Assembly: GCA_018394295.1 (NCBI GenBank)
Contig: CP074573.1
Coordinates: 496,001-560,000, forward strand
DNA from: Mycoplasmatota bacterium
Lineage (GTDB): Bacteria > Bacillota_I > Bacilli_A > Haloplasmatales > Haloplasmataceae
Reading direction: 5' to 3'
DNA: 64,000 nucleotides
Made by a program: the position numbers and the translations under genes. Position 1 is the first letter of the stretch, and each line of letters opens with the position of its first letter. Under the pieces are notes generated by a model, which did no database searches, had not been told where the DNA came from, and worked only from the letters and a program-made list of their open reading frames with translations. Shown here piece after piece: positions 28,685 to 39,074 of the stretch.

Positions 28685-30469
28685 GTGAAAAAGAGAGATA
28701 GTAGTGTTACAAAACAATTATTTTGACTGATTAGACTATTTCCTAAAAAAGGATTATTATCAATAGGAATCTTTACAACCATTTGTCTGTCAGTAATTAC
28801 TGTGTTACTTTCAGTATCACTCAAAAATTTGACTGATTATGCGATAGAAAAAAATGAACTTGGATTTTTTAATGTATTATATTTTATAGTCAGTCTTGCA
28901 TTAATTAACATTGTATTTAGTTATATACAAACAAAAACTATTGGATACTACACAGAATATGGACTTGCAAAATTACGAGGAAAAGTTGGGAAAAAGTTGA
29001 GTATAATTCCCTTTAGTCATTTAACTGAATCACATACAGGGGATTATGTTTCACGAGCAACGAATGATATGGCAAATGTAAAAACTTTTACGACATTGAA
29101 TCTTCCCTATCTGATTAGTATTCCATTAACTGCGATAGGTGCTTTGACTTGTTTATTTATATTAAGTTGGAAGTTAACATTATTTAGTTTAGTTTTAATT
29201 CCTGTATTAATTGTTGTGTCATCTTTATTATCACTTCCTATGGGTCCTATTAGTAAAAAGATGCAAGCTACATTAGGAAAAGTCAATTCAATTGTGACTG
29301 ATTTTATCAAAGGAATAGAAGTTTCAAAAGCTTATCTATTAGAAAGACCAATTAATGAAAAACATGATAAGAGTGTTTTAGAATCGGTGAAACATGCTAA
29401 AAATTTAGCCAAAAGAGAATCCATTCTTGATTCAGTTTCTTCTTTAATGAGTATTATTCCATTTGTTGTTTCCATGATTTTAGGTGGGTATTTAGCAAGT
29501 AAAGGTGAAATATCTGCAGGGGGGTTACTGGCGTTTATTGCTTTACTTAATGCAGTGACTTTTCCAATTAGTTATTTTCCAACACTTATTGGTCAATCAA
29601 AAATTCAATTAGTATCTGCTGAAAGAATATTTGAGATTATTGATGATGTAGAAGAACGAAAAACAGGAACTGATTTTAATTTTAATTTAAATAACCATAA
29701 GCGTATAATTGAATTTAGAGATGTTACGTTTACATATCCTAATCAAAATGAAACCTTATTTAAAGGGTTAAGTTTTAAAGTTGATTATGGTGAATCAGTT
29801 GCTTTTGTTGGTGCATCTGGATGCGGAAAAAGTACAATCATGAAGCTAATTCTAGGGTACTATGAAGATTATGAGGGAGAAATCTTCATTGGTGGACATG
29901 AATTAAAAGAATGGGATTTAGATGGGTTACGAAATAAGATGGCTTTAGTTAGTCAGGATACGTTTTTATTTCCTGTAACCATTGAAGAGAATATTCGTTA
30001 TGGAAGTTTAGATGCTACAGATGATGAGTTGATTTATAGTACTAAACAGGCGAATGCTGATTGTTTTATAACTGGTTTTAAAAAGGGTTATTTATCTGAG
30101 GTCGGAGAATTAGGAAATAGTCTATCAGGTGGTCAAAAACAAAGATTAACAATTGCAAGAGCAATATTAAAAAACGCACCAATTTTTTTACTTGATGAAG
30201 CGACTTCAAGTTTAGATACAGAATCAGAACAACTCATTACAGAGGCGCTTGATCGATTCATGTCAGAAAAAACAAGTATTGTTGTTGCTCACCGATTACA
30301 AACAATTAAACAAGTTGATAGAATATACGTTATGCAGAATGGAAAAATTATTGAAGAAGGTAAACATGATGTGTTAATCGCAAAAAATAGTGTGTATACA
30401 AGCTTATACAAAAAACAAATGAAATCTGAAGTCGACTCTTCTTTAAAGGAGGGATTATGTGATGAATAG
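28685..30469 (+). CDS. ABC exporter half-transporter, reading frame interrupted by TGA at codon 14
   Basis: The frame starts at GTG 28685 (GAGAGG upstream). It runs 13 codons, meets TGA at 28724-28726, then stays open in the same frame to 30469. The downstream part has the ABC membrane domain and a complete ATPase domain: Walker A 'GASGCGKST', signature 'LSGGQKQR', Walker B with catalytic Glu 'IFLLDEATSSLD'. The first membrane helix ('LLSIGIFTTICLSVITVLL') lies between the TGA and the first later GTG (28802), so restarting there would lose it. A tryptophan (TGG) at the TGA would suit the context '-QLF-W-LIRLFPKK'. This may be a point nonsense mutation, a sequencing error or recoding. It pairs with the next gene, a few bases away. 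Confidence 0.75.
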
Positions 30470-32207
30470 TACATTATTTAGATTGTTTGGATTTATGAAA
30501 AAAGCATTTTGGCCTTATTTTATTGGACTAATATTTATCGGTTTATTGACAATGGCTATTGATGTTAGTTTGGCTTTATTAATAAAAGAAATGTTTGATG
30601 TATTAGAACATAATCAAATTTTATTTAGTAAAATCCTAATACCTTTAAAACGTTATATGTGGATTGTCTTATTGATTTTAGTTATTAGACCAATATTTTA
30701 TTATATTGTGAATAAATCAGCAGCAATTACAACCGGTAATATAAGAACAACACTTTTTAATAAGTTGACTAAATTGCCCTTGTTATTTTACAGAGAAAAA
30801 CATAGTGGTGAAGTGATTTCACGGATGACTAATGATATTGTAGAAGCTGAAAAAGTTTATAAAACCCATTTAGTGAGATTTTTATCTTTTCTTATCGCAG
30901 GAATAGGTACAACAACTGTTGCTTTTATTATTCAATGGCGAATGGGTATTATTATGATTATAAGTGCTAGTATTACTATTTTGATTAATTTCTACTTTGC
31001 GAAAAAATTACGCTTTATAAGTCGTGATGTTCAACAAAAATTGGCAAACTTAACAAAAAGTTTAACAAATATTTTAGATGGAATGCATGTAATTCGTTGT
31101 TTTAATATACATAAAATCATACTAGGTAAATTCTATAATGATAATAAGGATGTATTAAACCGTTCAAATGATCGGGTTGATACGCAATCGATTATATCGG
31201 GATTAAATATGCTTGTTGAAATGGTTAGTTTTTTTGGAGTTGCTACATTTGGAGCTTTTCTAGTTTTAAAAGGAATTACAACAATTGGTGTAATTATCGC
31301 AACCGTTCAACTACAAAATTCGTTAGTTCAATTAATACAAGTATTATCTAGATTTATAACTAATATACAAGGTTCACTCGCTGCAGCTGATCGTATAATG
31401 GAAATTATTGATGAGGAAGAAGAACCTGAATATTATATTACTGAAGAAACCGATAAAGAGAACCTAAATTCTGCGATTTTATTTGACCAAGTGAGTTTTG
31501 GGTATGATGCAAATTTAGTATTAAAACAGTTATCTTTTATATTACCTAAAGATAAAGTGTATGCAATTGTTGGTTCTAGTGGTGGAGGGAAGAGTACAAT
31601 ATTTAAGTTGGCGCTTAATTTTTATCCACCATTGATGGGTAATATTGCGATTGACGGAGGATCTATTTCTCATCAATCTATTCAAAAGTTAAGACAGATG
31701 ATTGCTTATGTTCCACAGGATGCCCATTTATTTACGGGAACAATTAAAGAGAATATCGCCTATGGAAGATTAGATGCTAGTTTTGAAGAAATTCAAGAAG
31801 CTGCTAAACTAGCAAATGCAGATAACTTTATTAATGAGTTTAAAGAAGGTTATCATACTCATATCGGTGAAAATGGTGCTCAGCTTTCAGGAGGACAACG
31901 TCAAAGAATTGCGATTGCACGAGCTATTTTAAAAAATGCTCCTATTTTATTATTAGATGAAGCTACATCAAGTTTAGATAGTGAATCAGAACAACTCGTT
32001 CAAGATGCATTAGATAAACTCATGAAAAACAAGTCAACGCTGATTATTGCTCACAGATTATCAACAATCGAACATGCTGATCTAATACTGGTTGTACAAG
32101 ATGGTATTGTTAAAGAACAAGGGACTCATGAATCATTAATGCAAAGCGAAAAAGGAATTTATAAGATTTTGTATCAAACACAATATAACATGAGTGAAGC
32201 TACATAA
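30462..32207 (+). CDS. ABC exporter half-transporter (partner of the interrupted gene)
   Basis: 581 residues from the ATG at 30462, placed eight bases after AAGGAGGG and overlapping the previous gene's end. An N-terminal six-helix exporter domain (about 1-300) is followed by an ATPase domain with Walker A 'GSSGGGKST', 'LSGGQRQRIAIARAIL' and 'ILLLDEATSSLDSESE'. Both this subunit and its partner keep the catalytic glutamate. The family exports lipids, peptides or drugs; nothing in the sequence names the cargo. If the partner is truly broken, this subunit would have to work as a homodimer or not at all. Confidence 0.9.
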   Translation: MNSTLFRLFGFMKKAFWPYFIGLIFIGLLTMAIDVSLALLIKEMFDVLEHNQILFSKILIPLKRYMWIVLLILVIRPIFYYIVNKSAAITTGNIRTTLFNKLTKLPLLFYREKHSGEVISRMTNDIVEAEKVYKTHLVRFLSFLIAGIGTTTVAFIIQWRMGIIMIISASITILINFYFAKKLRFISRDVQQKLANLTKSLTNILDGMHVIRCFNIHKIILGKFYNDNKDVLNRSNDRVDTQSIISGLNMLVEMVSFFGVATFGAFLVLKGITTIGVIIATVQLQNSLVQLIQVLSRFITNIQGSLAAADRIMEIIDEEEEPEYYITEETDKENLNSAILFDQVSFGYDANLVLKQLSFILPKDKVYAIVGSSGGGKSTIFKLALNFYPPLMGNIAIDGGSISHQSIQKLRQMIAYVPQDAHLFTGTIKENIAYGRLDASFEEIQEAAKLANADNFINEFKEGYHTHIGENGAQLSGGQRQRIAIARAILKNAPILLLDEATSSLDSESEQLVQDALDKLMKNKSTLIIAHRLSTIEHADLILVVQDGIVKEQGTHESLMQSEKGIYKILYQTQYNMSEAT

Positions 32208-32223
32208 AACAAAATAGAAATAA

Positions 32224-32252
32224 AAAAAGCATGATGATTCATGCTTTTTAAT
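32224..32252. terminator. Bidirectional terminator between two ABC exporter operons
   Basis: Arms AAAAAGCATGA (32224-32234) and TCATGCTTTTT (32239-32249) form a tight hairpin between converging genes. Confidence 0.85.
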
Positions 32253-34089
32253 ATCCAAGAGATTGAGTTTGTTCTTCAACAAATTGATTCGTATATAAAC
32301 GGTAATAATAACCCTTTTGTTTGATTAATTCATCGTGGTTTCCTTGCTCAATAATTTTTCCACTTCTAATAACTAGTATCTTATCAGCACTCACTATCGT
32401 TGATAGTCTGTGAGCTATGATAAAACTAGTTCGTCCATGAAGCAATTTATTAATTGCTTTTTGAATTTTTTGTTCGGTTTCTGTATCGATAGAAGAAGTT
32501 GCCTCATCTAAAACAAAGATAGATGGGTTGGCTAATATCGCACGAGCGAAAGAGATTAATTGTTTTTGACCTGTTGATAGTCTTCCTCCACCTTCTCCAA
32601 CTTGTGTATCATATCCATCTTCAAATTCTTGAATAAAATGATGAGCGTCTACAAGTTTAGCTGCTTCAATAACTTCTTCATCGGTGGCATCAAGTCGACC
32701 ATAACGAATGTTTTGCATAATGGTTCCACTGAAAAGATGTGGGCTTTGTAAAACATAGCCAAGGTTTGAGTGTAACCAGCCTAAAGACCGTTTACGATAA
32801 TCAACCTCATCTATAAGAATATTCCCTTCGGTTGGTTCAAAAAAGCGACAAATTAGATTGACAACAGTACTTTTACCAGCTCCTGTTTCACCAACTAAGG
32901 CAATTGTTTCACCAGCTTTTACGGTTAGATTAAAGTTTTCTAAAATGTTTTCACCATCAGGATAGGAGAAGGTAACATCTTTGAATTCAATCTTTCCTTC
33001 AATTTCTTCCCAATTTTCTTCTTTAAAGTGTAGAAAATCACCATATTGTCTGATTACTTCATCACTATCTACGATTTCAGCTTCTGTTTCTAATAATGCG
33101 ATAATCCGTTCAGCAGATGCTTGTGCTTGTTGTAATTCTGCTAAAACACGAGCAAGTTGTAGGATTGGATCGAAAAATTGAGTGGAATAGGAAATGTAGA
33201 GTTGAAGGGTACCGATGGTTATAATCCCTTGAAGTACATAATTACCACCATTATAAATGGTTAATGCTGTTCCGACAAATCCTAAAACTAAAACTGCTGG
33301 AAAGAATAAAGATGAAATTACTGCAGCCTTAATGGATTTAGAACGCATAGAGGTTGTTAAATGATCAAATTCATGTAGATTTTTTTCTTCTAAAACGAGT
33401 GTTTTTGAAGTTTTAGCACCAGTAATTCCTTCATTAAAAGAACCTGTAATTTTAGAGTTTATTTTTCTAACTTCACGAAATAGTCGAAGCATCAGTTGTC
33501 TAAAGATAATACTAACAATAATAATAATTGGTGTTACAGCTAATGTGATTAGGGCAAGTTTAATATTAATGAAGAACATAACAATGATAATTGAAACCAT
33601 CATCATAAAGCCCCAACTCATATCAATAAGTCCCCAAGAGATGATTTCACTTAAGCGTCTAGCATCACTTGTGAGTCTAGCCATAATCCAACCAACCGGT
33701 GTATTATTGAAATAGTTAAATGATAAGGATTGAAGTTTCTCAAAGGCAGCTTTTCTTAGACTATAGGATAACTCAACTTCAATCGTTCCTGCATGTCTGA
33801 TAAATTTATAAATAAAGAATGTTTGTATTAATGCAAATATTAAGAATGCTGCTCCAAATAAATATAAGTAATTATAATTTAAAACTTCACCTTTATCAGT
33901 TACATCATATACATAATCAATGACTTCTCTTGTGATAAGAGGAAAGACAGCATCTAAAACGGCAATTAATACAACAAATACAATCCCCAATATAGCGTGT
34001 TTCTTTAGGGGTTTTAAATAAGTAAAGATCTTTTTCCAAGTCTTCAAATCTAGATTATTAGTAAAATCCTGTTCTTGAAATTTATCCAT
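32248..34089 (-). CDS. Heterodimeric ABC multidrug exporter, BmrD/YheH-like subunit
   Basis: 613 residues: a cytoplasmic N-terminus, six-helix exporter domain (about 35-330) and ATPase domain with Walker A 'GETGAGKST', the altered signature 'LSTGQKQLISFARAIL' and Walker B 'IFVLDEATSSIDTETE' with a normal catalytic Glu. It starts one base after its partner gene ends. The pairing of this complete site with a partner whose Walker B ends in Asp is typical of BmrC/BmrD and LmrC/LmrD exporters. Such pumps remove drugs including ribosome-targeting antibiotics. Confidence 0.88.
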   Translation of the reverse strand: MDKFQEQDFTNNLDLKTWKKIFTYLKPLKKHAILGIVFVVLIAVLDAVFPLITREVIDYVYDVTDKGEVLNYNYLYLFGAAFLIFALIQTFFIYKFIRHAGTIEVELSYSLRKAAFEKLQSLSFNYFNNTPVGWIMARLTSDARRLSEIISWGLIDMSWGFMMMVSIIIVMFFINIKLALITLAVTPIIIIVSIIFRQLMLRLFREVRKINSKITGSFNEGITGAKTSKTLVLEEKNLHEFDHLTTSMRSKSIKAAVISSLFFPAVLVLGFVGTALTIYNGGNYVLQGIITIGTLQLYISYSTQFFDPILQLARVLAELQQAQASAERIIALLETEAEIVDSDEVIRQYGDFLHFKEENWEEIEGKIEFKDVTFSYPDGENILENFNLTVKAGETIALVGETGAGKSTVVNLICRFFEPTEGNILIDEVDYRKRSLGWLHSNLGYVLQSPHLFSGTIMQNIRYGRLDATDEEVIEAAKLVDAHHFIQEFEDGYDTQVGEGGGRLSTGQKQLISFARAILANPSIFVLDEATSSIDTETEQKIQKAINKLLHGRTSFIIAHRLSTIVSADKILVIRSGKIIEQGNHDELIKQKGYYYRLYTNQFVEEQTQSLGY

Positions 34090-34090
34090 C

Positions 34091-35899
34091 CTATATCACC
34101 TCTTCCTTGTTTAATTTTTCCTCTAGTGTTGATTGAATACTCCAAATTTTCTTATATACTTTATCATTTTCAACTAATTCTTGATGAGATCCCATTTCAA
34201 GAATTTTCCCATCTTCTAAAACGATTATTTTATCAGCTTCCATCGCAGTTGAAATTCGATGGGTAATAATGATTTTTGTTAAGTCATTAGATCTATCAGA
34301 TAATGCTTTTCTAATAGATAAATCTGTTTCTGTATCGACAGCGCTTAATGAGTCATCAAAGATAATGATTGGTAAGTTTTTAACTAACATTCTCGCAATT
34401 GCGACACGTTGTCTTTGTCCACCTGATAAGGTAACCCCACGCTCTCCAATTAAGGTTTTATAACCTTTATCAAAATGTAAGATATCTTCATGAATAGAGG
34501 CGCTTGATGCAGCTTTATAAACCGCTTCATCATCAGGATTATCTGATATGATACCAATATTTTCATATATTGTTTTTGAGAATAAGAATGGTTCTTGTAA
34601 TACAATACCAATATTCTTTCTTATCCAATGTTTATCGATACTGTTAAGTTCAACACCGTCAATTTTAATAGAACCTGATGTATAATCATATAAACGAACA
34701 AGTAAATGAGCTAGTGTTGATTTACCACTTCCTGTTTTACCAATAATGGAAATGGTCTCTCCTTTTTTAATATTAAAGGAAATATCTTCTAAAGTTGGTA
34801 CAGATGCATCATCAAATGTGAAACTCACATGATCAAATGTTATATCACCATTTATTTCTGGTTTTTCTAAGTCTTTTTCTTGGTATTCAGTTTCTTCATC
34901 TAAAACTTCTTGAATCCGTTTAACTGATACTGTACTTTTTCCTAATTCGACAATAATACGTGCTAATTGACGTATTGGCCATAAAATAAAGTTAATAAAT
35001 CCAGAGAAAGCAACTAAATCACCAACTGTAATAAGTCCTCTTACAGCGAATAATGAACCCAATACGATTGTTGAACCGATTTGAAGCATACAAATGATAT
35101 CTGAACTTGACCAATAATAAGCCATATTATTAATTATTTTTTGTACATTATTAGAGTATTTACGGTTAAATTTATTAAATCTTTCGATTTCATATTTTTC
35201 TCTTGCGAATGCTTTTACAACACGTATACCTGTTAGGTTTTCTTGTAAAGCCGTTGACATTTTACCTTCTGATTCATCTGTTTCAGTAAATACTTTCTGA
35301 ATTCTTTTGAAAAAGATAAATGCAAAACTAAAGATGATTGGTACAACGATTAGAGAAATCAAAGTTAATTCCACATTAATCGCAAACATTTGAATTAGTA
35401 CGAAGATAAATAAAAATACAATTCTAAATATTTCTGGAAATTGGGTACCGATAAAGCGTCTAACAGTATCAACATCCGAAGTACTTCTTTGTATTAAATC
35501 TCCTGTTTCAGCTTGCGTATGATACGAATAAGGTAAGTTTTGTATGTGATTATATAATCTTACTCGTAGTTTATAAGCAACTTTTTCAGAGAATACTGCG
35601 TTAGACCGTCCTGATAAGAACATTAAGGAAGCACGTAGTAGCTGTAAAGCAACTAAAGCAATCCCTAAATAAAGTAACTTATCTAATGGAGATTGTCCGT
35701 TATTAATAAAATTGACAAATAAATCAGGAAGTCTTGTTGGCTTATCTGCTTCAAAAACAATAATTTTATCATATGCATGTTGATAAAATAATGGAACGAT
35801 TGTTAGTGTGTAAGTCACTATGATTAATGAAATGATGGAAATGAATAGATAAAAAATCTCTTCTTTAACCCAACCTAAGAGGATTTTAATATACTTCAT
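34091..35899 (-). CDS. Heterodimeric ABC multidrug exporter, BmrC/YheI-like subunit
   Basis: 602 residues from the ATG at 35899, eight bases behind AAAGGGG; a GTG nine bases upstream is inside the ribosome site. It has a six-helix exporter domain and an ATPase domain with Walker A 'GKTGSGKST', 'LSGGQRQRVAIARMLV' and Walker B 'IIIFDDSLSAVD', where Asp replaces the catalytic Glu. This degenerate site is the mark of the C-type subunit in BmrCD/LmrCD exporters. Upstream on the same strand lie a leader ORF and two terminators, so expression probably needs antitermination. In Bacillus, bmrCD is likewise preceded by the translated leader bmrB. Confidence 0.88.
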   Translation of the reverse strand: MKYIKILLGWVKEEIFYLFISIISLIIVTYTLTIVPLFYQHAYDKIIVFEADKPTRLPDLFVNFINNGQSPLDKLLYLGIALVALQLLRASLMFLSGRSNAVFSEKVAYKLRVRLYNHIQNLPYSYHTQAETGDLIQRSTSDVDTVRRFIGTQFPEIFRIVFLFIFVLIQMFAINVELTLISLIVVPIIFSFAFIFFKRIQKVFTETDESEGKMSTALQENLTGIRVVKAFAREKYEIERFNKFNRKYSNNVQKIINNMAYYWSSSDIICMLQIGSTIVLGSLFAVRGLITVGDLVAFSGFINFILWPIRQLARIIVELGKSTVSVKRIQEVLDEETEYQEKDLEKPEINGDITFDHVSFTFDDASVPTLEDISFNIKKGETISIIGKTGSGKSTLAHLLVRLYDYTSGSIKIDGVELNSIDKHWIRKNIGIVLQEPFLFSKTIYENIGIISDNPDDEAVYKAASSASIHEDILHFDKGYKTLIGERGVTLSGGQRQRVAIARMLVKNLPIIIFDDSLSAVDTETDLSIRKALSDRSNDLTKIIITHRISTAMEADKIIVLEDGKILEMGSHQELVENDKVYKKIWSIQSTLEEKLNKEEVI

Positions 35900-35971
35900 G
35901 AGAATCACCCCTTTTAAAATTTATTATAATTAACTCAGTATATTAGTGATGTGATTTTTTTGCTTGTAAAA

Positions 35972-36005
35972 ATAAAAAATAGGAGAAATGTCGTCCACTT
36001 CTCCT
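35972..36005 (-). terminator. Second leader terminator before the BmrCD-like operon
   Basis: On the minus strand the arms AGGAGAA and TTCTCCT (35999-36005 and 35981-35987) enclose an 11-base loop and are followed by TATTTTTTATTTTT. It lies between the first leader terminator and the exporter genes. A full-length exporter message must therefore pass two terminators. Confidence 0.7.
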
Positions 36006-36020
36006 ATATCATGATTAAAC

Positions 36021-36051
36021 GCAAAAAAATAGGAATCTCTTGAGAGATTCC
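36021..36051 (-). terminator. Leader-proximal attenuator terminator
   Basis: On the minus strand, GGAATCTCT (36051-36043) and AGAGATTCC (36040-36032) form a 9-bp perfect stem followed by TATTTTTTT. The upstream arm can instead pair with AGAGATTC inside the leader ORF (36111-36104), which would prevent the terminator from folding. Confidence 0.8.
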
Positions 36052-36084
36052 ATAATAATAACAATGTAAATAAGGATAAACTAA

Positions 36085-36180
36085 TTAATTATCCGAATGA
36101 AAAGAATCTCTAGTGAAGACAATGACTGTTTGATATTTAGTTTTATTTTTTGTAATAAACATATTTTTTAATTTAATCAT
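36085..36180 (-). CDS. 31-residue leader peptide of the BmrCD-like exporter operon
   Basis: A short ORF (begins MIKLKNMFITKNKTKYQ, ends DSFHSDN) has an excellent ribosome site, GGAGG eight bases before the ATG, and a promoter 30 bases upstream. Codons 24-26 contain AGAGATTC, complementary to the first arm of the terminator downstream. A ribosome that finishes the ORF would cover this segment and let the terminator form; one stalled near the Lys-rich codons 11-16 would leave it free for antitermination. The peptide belongs to no family I know. It plays the role that bmrB plays before bmrCD in Bacillus; the functional analogy is inference. Confidence 0.65.
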   Translation of the reverse strand: MIKLKNMFITKNKTKYQTVIVFTRDSFHSDN

Positions 36181-36217
36181 TTTCTTCACCTCCGTTTTTT
36201 TTATTTTTTACTTCACA

Positions 36218-36246
36218 AGTTTACCAGTTTAATTTTTAATTGTCAA
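36218..36246 (-). promoter_or_regulatory. Promoter of the leader-BmrCD operon
   Basis: On the minus strand TTGACA (36246-36241) and TAAACT (36223-36218) are spaced by 17 bases. Transcription would start near 36211, about 30 bases before the leader ATG. Confidence 0.75.
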
Positions 36247-36295: not shown

Positions 36296-36391
36296 AACTT
36301 ATGTTATTCTATTAAGTGTTAAAATGTGAAAGATATCATAATTTTTTATATAAATCAAATAATACAGATAGTATTTGTAAAAGGAGATAAC

Positions 36392-36703
36392 ATGAAAGAA
36401 ATCAAAAATATATTAGATATAAATTCTATTATTCAAAAAGATTTAGTAATTATAATCGCGAAAGCTAAAAACTGTTCAGTTTGTATTCCAGTAGGAAATA
36501 GATTAGAAATGCTTTTGAAAGATTACCCAAACATTCCCATCTATCAAGTGTATATTGATGAGGTAGAGGCTTTTAGAGGAGAATTTCTTGTTTTTACAGT
36601 TCCAACTGTTCTAATCTTTTCCTCAGGTAAAGAAATATTACGTGAATCTCGTTTTGTTGCGTTTAATAAGATTAAACGTTTGTTAGATTTATATGTATCT
36701 TAA
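36392..36703 (+). CDS. Thioredoxin-like protein with a CSVC motif
   Basis: 103 residues from the ATG at 36392 (AAGGAG seven bases upstream). The sequence 'IIIAKAKNCSVCIPVGNRL' holds a CxxC pair in the thioredoxin position and 'FTVPTVLIFSSGKE' supplies the cis-proline loop. The fold is complete, but the active-site dipeptide (Ser-Val) is unlike thioredoxin (Gly-Pro), so it may be a specialised thiol-disulfide protein. It is divergent from the BmrCD leader and ends in a terminator. Confidence 0.8.
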   Translation: MKEIKNILDINSIIQKDLVIIIAKAKNCSVCIPVGNRLEMLLKDYPNIPIYQVYIDEVEAFRGEFLVFTVPTVLIFSSGKEILRESRFVAFNKIKRLLDLYVS

Positions 36704-36779: not shown

Positions 36780-37754
36780 TTAAGCAACTGGTAGTAGTGT
36801 ATCTACACCGGTTGTTTTTTTCAACACCTCTACAGGTGTTAAATAATTTAAAAACTTACGTGGAATGCTATTCCACTTATTTGCTATTAGGTTTAATTCT
36901 TCCTGGGTATAAACTGATAAATTAGTGGATTTAGGTAAATCTTTTCTTACAATACCATTGGAGTTTTCATTCAATCCTCTTTGTCCTGGAGAGCCAGGGT
37001 CACCAAAATAGATACCCGTATCTACTAAACTCTCCTGCTCAATTTCTTTCCATTTTGAGAATTCTTTTCCACGATCAAAGGTAATTGTTATAATACAGTT
37101 ATTAGGTAGTTCATTGAGCCAATTACATGTTGCTAATTTCACATCTTCACTTTTTCTACTTGCCTTTAACAAGATAATGTATTTAGTTTGTTTTTCAACT
37201 AATGTTACAATTGCAGACTTACGTTTCTCGCCCACAATTGTATCGCCTTCAAAGTGTCCATATTCCTAATTACTACTAGACATAGGGTACTTTTCATTGC
37301 GCTCATGAATCGTCTTACAGACGTTTATTTTACCTCTAGTTTCGTTATGCCCTTTAGGATTTCTTTTACCTTTGCGTCTTAGTTTATTCTTGTCTATTAA
37401 ATCTCTTTTAACCATGTTGTATAAAGTTTTAATTGAACATCTTTCTTCTACTTGATCTACTTTATCTCTACCAGCTATGGCATCTAGTGACCAATCAGAA
37501 TCTAACCTATAATCAATTTCTTTTAGTTTTTCTTCAGATAACTTAATATGTTTTCTTCCACATCTTTTTCTATTTTTTAGGTACTGATTATAAATTTGAA
37601 TTACTGTAAGTCCTTGAATAAACAACTTATAATACGTATAAACTTTATCTTTTCCTATTTGCATTCTGAGTGCACATTCTCTAGCTTTTATACCTAATCT
37701 ATAATTTGCCTCTATATTTGTTAATTCATTTATGGTAATATGTTTATATGACAT
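36780..37754 (-). pseudogene. IS30-family transposase with internal amber stop
   Basis: 324 codons from the ATG at 37754, which has AAGGAG eight bases upstream. An N-terminal helix-turn-helix region ('ITINELTNIEANYRLGIKARECALRM') leads to the IS30 block and the DDE catalytic core: 'HFEGDTIVG' (first Asp), 'TFDRGKEFSKW' (second Asp) and 'GLNENSNGIVRKDLP' (Glu). A TAG at 37268-37266 (codon 163) interrupts the frame just before the first catalytic Asp; both halves are otherwise in the same frame and undamaged. The break is therefore recent or suppressible. The start codon is buried in a hairpin (37750-37806). Confidence 0.88.
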
Positions 37755-37806
37755 GTATGATACTCCTTTATTTGTTTGGCGATGAATTAAGTGTATCATA
37801 CATGTC
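37750..37806 (-). promoter_or_regulatory. Hairpin that sequesters the IS30 transposase start codon
   Basis: A 14-bp perfect inverted repeat (GACATGTATGATAC at 37750-37763, its complement at 37793-37806) brackets the ribosome site. In RNA entering from outside the element, the arms would pair and enclose the start region, blocking translation. A transcript starting inside, after the upstream arm, would be free. This is a known strategy of insertion sequences against read-through expression. Confidence 0.6.
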
Positions 37807-37925: not shown

Positions 37926-39074
37926 ATGAAAGAGAAAATTATTGAATTACTACATGAGTTTCAAGAAACTTACGATAAAAAAGATGTAAATAATGTTGAT
38001 CAGTTTATGAAGAAACTTTTTATCGATAAGGAAAATATTTCGATTTTAGGGACAAGTTTTGGTGAGTTATGTTTAGGTTATGATGAATGTAAGAAGTTAT
38101 TTACAGATGATTGGGAATATTGGAGTTTTGAGCATTTAGATTTTGACCATCTTATTATTAAAGATTATGAGGATGCTGTTTTAGTTTATGCTCCTGCTTA
38201 TTTTTCTTTTACTTTTAAACATAATAATTATGGAGATTATATTGATGAACTTAAAGATCAATTAAATGATTCAAAAAATCTACAAAAAGATTTAACAGAA
38301 ATTAATTGGATTATAGCTCATTTTCTCCATGAAAGAGAAATAAAGGATAGAAAATATATGTTAGATTTAAGGTTATGTTTTATTTTTGTTAAAACAAACA
38401 ATGAGTTTAAAGTAAAACAAATTCAATTTTCTGTCCCTGAGGATTATTCAGATACTAGATTAGCGCTACCTGAAATCAAAAGTGCTTATGAAAGTGAGAT
38501 AGAAAAATATTTAGCACATAAGACTGCTGAAAACATTGAAATACAGGATGTATTAAAACCATTTAGTCATGATTTTATGAATCTTGATATTGATGAGATG
38601 ATACACAAGTATTTTGATTTAGAAAATCTTCTAATATTACATGTTGATAATCAAATCGCAGAAAATTTAGAAGACTTAAAATTACTTATCAAAGATATTC
38701 GGAAAAATTGGCAGTCAATAGAGATAAATAGTGATGTGGCATATATAAAAAATAATGGAAAATGTGTCTCTATACTATCTAATGGTTTAGGAAAAAGTTA
38801 TATTGATGAAGAAACTTTTTATAAAAATACTAAAGATAAAATTATTAAAATCGCTAATGGAAATCTTCATGAAAAAGAAAAATTATTTGTTATTAGAAAA
38901 GAAATTAGTACTGCAATGAGAGATGTTTCTGTTTCAAATGAATATGATTGGCCAATTCGTGTACACATGTTAATGAAAAAACATGAAAATCGTTGGTTAA
39001 TTCAATATTTACAATTTTCCTATCCTTTTTACTACATATTAGAAAATAAGAATCAGTTTATGAAATTAGTTTAA
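37926..39074 (+). CDS. Uncharacterised protein with two NTF2/SnoaL-like halves
   Basis: 382 residues, GGGAGG eight bases before the ATG. Two halves (about 1-180 and 200-375) share a layout: a helical start ('ELLHEFQETYDKKDVNNVDQFMKKLF' versus 'DVLKPFSHDFMNLDIDEMIHKYF'), then 'ISILGTSFGELCLGYDECKKLFTDDW' versus 'LLILHVDNQIAENLEDLKLLIKDI', then beta strands. This suggests a duplicated SnoaL/NTF2-like fold, often a ligand-binding or small enzyme domain. No catalytic residues can be assigned. It lies between an IS30 element and an APH-like kinase. Confidence 0.6.
   Translation: MKEKIIELLHEFQETYDKKDVNNVDQFMKKLFIDKENISILGTSFGELCLGYDECKKLFTDDWEYWSFEHLDFDHLIIKDYEDAVLVYAPAYFSFTFKHNNYGDYIDELKDQLNDSKNLQKDLTEINWIIAHFLHEREIKDRKYMLDLRLCFIFVKTNNEFKVKQIQFSVPEDYSDTRLALPEIKSAYESEIEKYLAHKTAENIEIQDVLKPFSHDFMNLDIDEMIHKYFDLENLLILHVDNQIAENLEDLKLLIKDIRKNWQSIEINSDVAYIKNNGKCVSILSNGLGKSYIDEETFYKNTKDKIIKIANGNLHEKEKLFVIRKEISTAMRDVSVSNEYDWPIRVHMLMKKHENRWLIQYLQFSYPFYYILENKNQFMKLV

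Follow-up and report, generated by a model that had tools for sequence, protein, structure and literature searches.

The window, a 64,000-nucleotide stretch of a Haloplasmataceae genome (contig CP074573.1), carries on its minus strand a two-gene ABC exporter preceded by a short open reading frame (ORF). An earlier note made from the sequence alone had described a promoter, a 31-codon ORF, two terminators and the exporter genes in this region, and we located all of them where it had placed them. Terminator 1 (T1), which had been credited with a 9-bp stem, has 8 pairs and a tetraloop. The features in the order of transcription are:

36218–36246, minus strand: sigma-A promoter, with TTGACA (36246–36241), a 17-nt spacer and TAAACT (36223–36218); TG precedes the -10 element
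36175–36193, minus strand: segment 1, Shine-Dalgarno sequence (SD) and start codon of the leader ORF (GGAGGUGAAGAAAAUGAUU), the predicted 5′ strand of an anti-antiterminator
36085–36180, minus strand: leader ORF of 31 codons, MIKLKNMFITKNKTKYQTVIVFTRDSFHSDN, sitting behind GGAGGTGA
36113–36127, minus strand: segment 2, AGUCAUUGUCUUCAC, predicted partner of segment 1 and probably, through a weak pairing, of the T2 loop
36104–36111, minus strand: segment 3, AGAGAUUC, predicted antiterminator strand, partner of the T1 5′ arm and loop
36032–36051, minus strand: T1, GGAAUCUC-UCAA-GAGAUUCC, followed by a U-rich tract
35979–36007, minus strand: terminator 2 (T2), AUAGGAGAAGUG-GACGA-CAUUUCUCCUAU, followed by a U-rich tract
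35906–35912, minus strand: Shine-Dalgarno sequence of the exporter, GGGGUGA and a flanking base
34091–35899, minus strand: ABC exporter subunit 1, Walker B FDD
32248–34089, minus strand: ABC exporter subunit 2, Walker B LDE, signature LSTGQ

Both subunits are halves of a type IV ABC exporter, and the combination of FDD in subunit 1 with LSTGQ in subunit 2 is consistent with a heterodimer that has one degenerate site. The pair had been called BmrCD-like, a description that suits its architecture only: in sequence comparison YheI/YheH (BmrC/BmrD) match the subunits at 1e-87/1e-96, and TM288, TmrA/B and Sav1866 score higher. Among named records the nearest is a MAG labelled Haloplasma contractile, with an exporter 81% identical.

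A second ABC exporter pair (28802–30469 and 30459–32207, plus strand; span 28802–32207) converges on the pair that follows the leader; two exporters of the heterodimeric type are arranged tail to tail. On the other side, a thioredoxin-like ORF (36326–36703, plus strand) diverges from the leader; a similar ORF with the same beginning diverges at the same place in G003 (L004). Further out lie an IS30-like transposase (36780–37799, minus strand), which we recognized by eye and which is split into ORFs 37799–37266 and 37235–36780 with no Pfam match at 0.001, and a phosphotransferase ORF (APH family, PF01636; 39077–40018, plus strand) that adjoins a SnoaL-like ORF (37926–39074).

Codons 24–26 of the leader ORF (AGAGATTC, 36111–36104) are complementary to GAATCTCT in T1, as the earlier note had recognized. 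We identified a further complementarity, absent from that note, between the ORF tail AGUCAUUGUCUUCAC and the ORF's own SD and start codon: GUGAAGA.AAUGAUU, which runs from the SD to codon 2, can pair with A(G/A)UCAUU.UCUUCAC. In the window this predicted anti-antiterminator covers segment 2 only. Dinucleotide shuffles of the window alone placed both complementarities only marginally beyond chance (p=0.037 for SD:tail, p=0.047 for tail:T1), and the case for them therefore rests on conservation and rank. The window leader is an outlier among the units of SD, ORF and terminator that we found in 464 kb of its own genome, scored on both strands (-27.9, with the next-best unit at -11.4), and its region holds 2 terminator-like sites versus 0.2 expected in shuffles. 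Pairing of the tail with T2 was not significant in the window (p=0.31); over eight related, non-independent leaders it gave a Fisher value of 0.0009, which is only suggestive for the family. A scan with Rfam 15 covariance models returned no above-threshold match to the window leader or to the nine relatives included.

Conservation within the Haloplasmataceae

The leader lies directly upstream of the same exporter orthologue (67–81% identity) in all eight family genomes, which represent eight species. Promoter, SD, ORF, T1 and second terminator keep their order in 8/8, and the seven promoters other than that of the window have TTGAC[AT], a spacer of 17–18 nt and a TGn-extended -10 element. The leader ORFs are 24–33 codons long, with the same SD at the same place throughout. 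The segment 2 motif is present as an exact GUCUUCAC in seven of the genomes and as AUCUUCAC in the eighth. Conservation of the complementary segments, on which the earlier note had made its reading depend, thus extends to 8/8 relatives.

To describe the pairings across the family we aligned blocks hand-cut from the eight leaders. The anti-antiterminator formed by SD, start codon and tail was found in all eight, its pairs being formed in 85% of alignment cells versus 36–54% in slid controls – controls that are somewhat flattering, because the blocks were cut with the pairings in view. Under the same controls, segment 3 of the tail paired with the T1 5′ arm in 8/8 leaders and in 90% of cells, versus 38–75% when slid. 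The T1 structure was formed in 100% of cells. Both sides had changed at four SD:tail pairs (a number reached by 24 of 500 shuffles), at one tail:T1 pair, the kind of covariation that the earlier note had proposed as a check, and at one T1 pair, where three of the eight relatives carry a compensatory A-U to G-C change. With segments that vary so little, only modest covariation is seen among the eight genomes.

Most of the other family genomes have, upstream of the SD, a GAAUC-like stretch that likewise pairs with segment 3; there the predicted SD hairpin occupies the antiterminator strand in full. The window has AAAAC in place of this stretch. A search for the motif pattern in 387 other genomes of the class gave six matches, which we treated as chance; L035, the only one that we inspected, has its match in another setting.

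The same layout in another order

We observed the same layout, spelled in different letters, upstream of a 49% identical exporter from a Tissierella MAG (L022). Within the order of this MAG, 54 of 70 exporter upstream regions were scored as leaders by the criteria used for the family, and two more (L145, L158) were recognized by eye. At least 56 of the 70 exporter relatives in this distant order therefore share the layout, mostly with different sequences and with replaced helices among them. A typical distant leader reads GGAGGUCGUG AAGAUG ... CACGACCUAUG ... stop ... CCAUAGGU-loop-CCUAUGG-U-run, often with a second such hairpin. Helices have been replaced with pairing kept (GGUCGUG/CACGACC, GGCCAUG/UAUGGCC, GGUUGCG/CGCAACC, GGGUAA/UUACCC); the replacement GGUCGUA/UACGACC goes with UGUAGGU in T1, and in a GGAGGA/UCCUCC variant the T1 loop GUUGUGU matches ACACAA in the tail. 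Of 249 genomes, 26 contain the exact pair AGGUCGUG...CACGACCU, and from sequence and position we judged about 21 of these to have it at the exporter.

Shuffle tests on the distant leaders gave p<0.05 for SD:tail in 38 of 54 and for tail:T1 in 46 of 54. Exchanging SDs and tails between leaders was a blunter test, because a tail holding CCUCC will pair with whichever SD it is given, and GUGAAGA is present in the distant SD too: own pairs on the diagonal averaged -12.1 versus -8.7 off it, and a Tissierella-type SD paired with a Haloplasma tail at -14.4, nearly equal to its own -15.7. The automatic swap, ribosome-footprint and shuffle/frame analyses used a wrong T1 boundary for L005, which affects that row only.

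Among other families, 4 of 65 exporter homologues were scored as having a leader, and two of these, from one family (L077, L087), look real on inspection. Their exporters are GC-richer and have an upstream SD:tail-paired short ORF and a terminator; they may represent a third lineage with this type of leader. Separately, in several distant leaders (L139–L142, L144, L157 and others) the region from T2 to the start of the exporter contains one or two extra short ORFs, each led by an SD, which may form a second layer acting on translation.

A tree of 63 exporters places the family in one clade (100/100), which groups with families that mostly have no leader and not with the Tissierella order. Given this grouping and the missing leaders of most closer relatives, the leaders may go back to a common, old one that has often been lost, or they may have arisen more than once.

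Folding and the position of the ribosome

A small ORF with a ribosome site, predicted to be translated, overlaps the switch segments in family and distant leaders alike. The tail motif falls in frames 0, 1 and 2 in 33, 9 and 4 distant leaders and in 5, 2 and 1 family members, and its occurrence in all three frames argues that RNA, not peptide, is conserved. Comparison of the peptides found no motif over the tail common to all leaders. The earlier note had placed the ribosome stall at Lys-rich codons 11–16 of the window ORF; this site is not conserved, since outside the genus the same codons read KQLNNF, NKITEY, LNIFQS and the like. What is conserved is the tail's pairing with the SD and start codon, and this suggests that arrest falls within the first ~5 codons rather than at the Lys codons.

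The earlier note had further proposed that the T1 and tail folds are mutually exclusive. Segment 3 does pair with the T1 5′ arm in 8/8 leaders, but the two folds are unbalanced and T1 wins at equilibrium. Folding with and without a ribosome footprint, a check that the earlier note had suggested, left T1 formed in the window with a probability of at least 0.97 in every ribosome state, and across the leaders the complete T1 prevailed in most combinations of leader and ribosome state. We therefore dropped equilibrium footprint folding as support for read-through. A switch would have to act kinetically, since the terminators are favoured at equilibrium in nearly all cases.

We then imposed ribosome footprints on 62 leaders, family and distant, with only the first half of T1 transcribed. 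A ribosome on codon 1 gave a mean of 10.7 nascent tail:T1 pairs in the family and 11.8 in the distant leaders, versus 5.5 and 6.6 with no ribosome and 1.1–2.7 with a ribosome at the ORF end. With no ribosome, SD:tail pairs averaged 16.7 (family) and 9.4 (distant). In these models the pattern agrees with a gate that frees the tail only when a ribosome is held at the first few codons. With a ribosome at codons 1–6 the T2 stem was lost in L003 and L007, and it was weakened at some of codons 1–4 in L005 and L006. In the window the SD hairpin leaves segment 3 free; the tail is therefore predicted to pair with T1 when no ribosome is present as well, and T2 would have to be the guard. The stop codon there lies five codons beyond segment 3, too far for a ribosome at termination to cover much of that segment.

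These considerations suggest the following switch. As long as the leader carries no ribosome, its SD and start codon would pair with the ORF tail as an anti-antiterminator, and transcription would terminate at T1 or T2. During normal translation the ribosome would reach and cover the tail, allowing T1 to fold and transcription to end. If a ribosome were arrested in the first codons, as a drug might do, it would cover the SD and start codon and leave the tail free; the free tail could then capture the emerging T1 5′ arm and loop, and probably the T2 loop, so that polymerase would read into the exporter genes.

That the element is a transcription attenuator of the exporter we regard as nearly certain, and the earlier reading of a translated-leader attenuator before a heterodimeric ABC exporter is well supported by the 8/8 conservation of its segments. 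The whole explanation – a ribosome-mediated attenuator that senses the position of the ribosome on the leader ORF – is likely, and the details of early arrest and start-site occupancy are favoured with more reserve. The exporter is probably made only when a ribosome is stuck at the start of the tiny leader ORF, as antibiotics cause.

Alternatives and relation to known attenuators

The arrangement could instead act as a sensor of growth rate or general translation, with any slow initiation or elongation switching the exporter on and no particular drug involved. Conservation of RNA rather than peptide means that arrest need not be context specific, which counts for such a sensor; its target is an exporter, however, and the attenuators known to work in this way are drug-responsive (PMC4191407, PMC9226507, PMC8079631). 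We consider a general sensor unlikely.

Somewhat less room is left for a peptide-specific attenuator of the erm, msrD or tlrB type, in which a drug-bound ribosome would stall at a defined nascent-peptide motif. Three of the eight family peptides have K-x-K or K/R-x-R at codons 3–5, as does the peptide of the Tissierella MAG (MIKLK, MIKVR, MLRVR), and +x+ is a macrolide arrest context; five family peptides also share a similar SLSS(R/Q/H)..(S/T) ending. The early +x+ motif is missing from the other family members, however, the peptides diverge widely and the conserved nucleotides are read in three frames, so that we think peptide-specific arrest improbable.

A pair of ordinary intergenic terminators that happen to follow a chance ORF, with another promoter driving the exporter, would suit an AT-rich genome and terminator folds that are stable in nearly all ribosome states. 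The promoter, SD, ORF and both terminators are nevertheless ordered alike in 8/8 genomes, with complementarity to the tail, and the arrangement recurs in another order; a chance origin is very hard to credit. An amino-acid attenuator, with lysyl-tRNA scarcity stalling the ribosome at codons 11–16, we rejected because those codons are not conserved: KNKTKY in the window and KNKIEY in the sister species give way to two or three Lys per peptide outside the genus, Lys codons are expected from an AT-rich genome and an exporter would be an odd target.

We return to the ribosome-position attenuator for what may be new in it. Tentatively, and as a possibility rather than an expectation, we propose an attenuator class that uses the leader's own ribosome-binding site as anti-antiterminator, lies outside Rfam and is present in two bacterial orders and perhaps in a third family (L077, L087). 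It would work as an AND gate that needs both a ribosome at the start and none on the tail, with helices replaced wholesale between lineages and the logic kept. As part of the same reading, such a gate would report early arrest whatever the peptide and would separate drug arrest from mere lack of translation. If the model holds, it explains how multidrug exporters are switched in little-studied lineages (Haloplasma relatives and the order of the Tissierella MAG), and why exporter leader peptides differ, the message being RNA plus ribosome position. The 62 natural variants (64 with the two seen by eye) provide material for the study of start-site occupancy in attenuation and a candidate Rfam family.

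The present layout was not found described in the open-licence papers that we searched. The 'ABC-leaders' of Naville and Gautheret 2010 are likewise computational attenuator candidates before ABC transporters, and the portion of that account consulted describes no family with this layout (PMC2965389). Attenuators also lie upstream of ABC transporters in rli59/lmo1652 of Listeria, which has a small ORF and responds to translation inhibitors (PMC8079631), and in patAB of Streptococcus pneumoniae, upstream of PatAB (PMC4319486); we compared both by description only.

Like bmrB of Bacillus subtilis bmrCD, the present leader combines an ORF, here predicted to be translated, with a terminator before a heterodimeric ABC multidrug exporter. 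For bmrB, an anti-antiterminator, antiterminator and terminator are predicted, all within bmrB nucleotides 60–162, with the terminator inside the ORF (PMC4191407). By that published description the two differ, since here the terminators lie past the stop codon, T1 beginning 26–69 nt beyond it, and the anti-antiterminator uses the leader's own ribosome site. The within-ORF terminator layout of bmrB was not encountered among our leaders, and we do not claim membership in bmrB.

The closest parallels in logic are the vmlR leader of Bacillus subtilis, which controls an ABC-F protein and has a 3-codon uORF inside the anti-antiterminator with a single-stranded SD (PMC9226507), and rli53/lmo0919 of Listeria, with a three-structure logic and a 3-codon uORF (reviewed in PMC8079631). 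Like these, the present leader would combine anti-antiterminator, antiterminator and terminator with a ribosome that stalls during or close to initiation on a small uORF, upstream of an antibiotic resistance gene. Unlike them, it has an ORF of 22–44 codons (31 in the window), an SD inside the hairpin and two terminators; and, unlike in vmlR, the SD and start codon form one strand of the predicted anti-antiterminator and the ORF tail forms the other.
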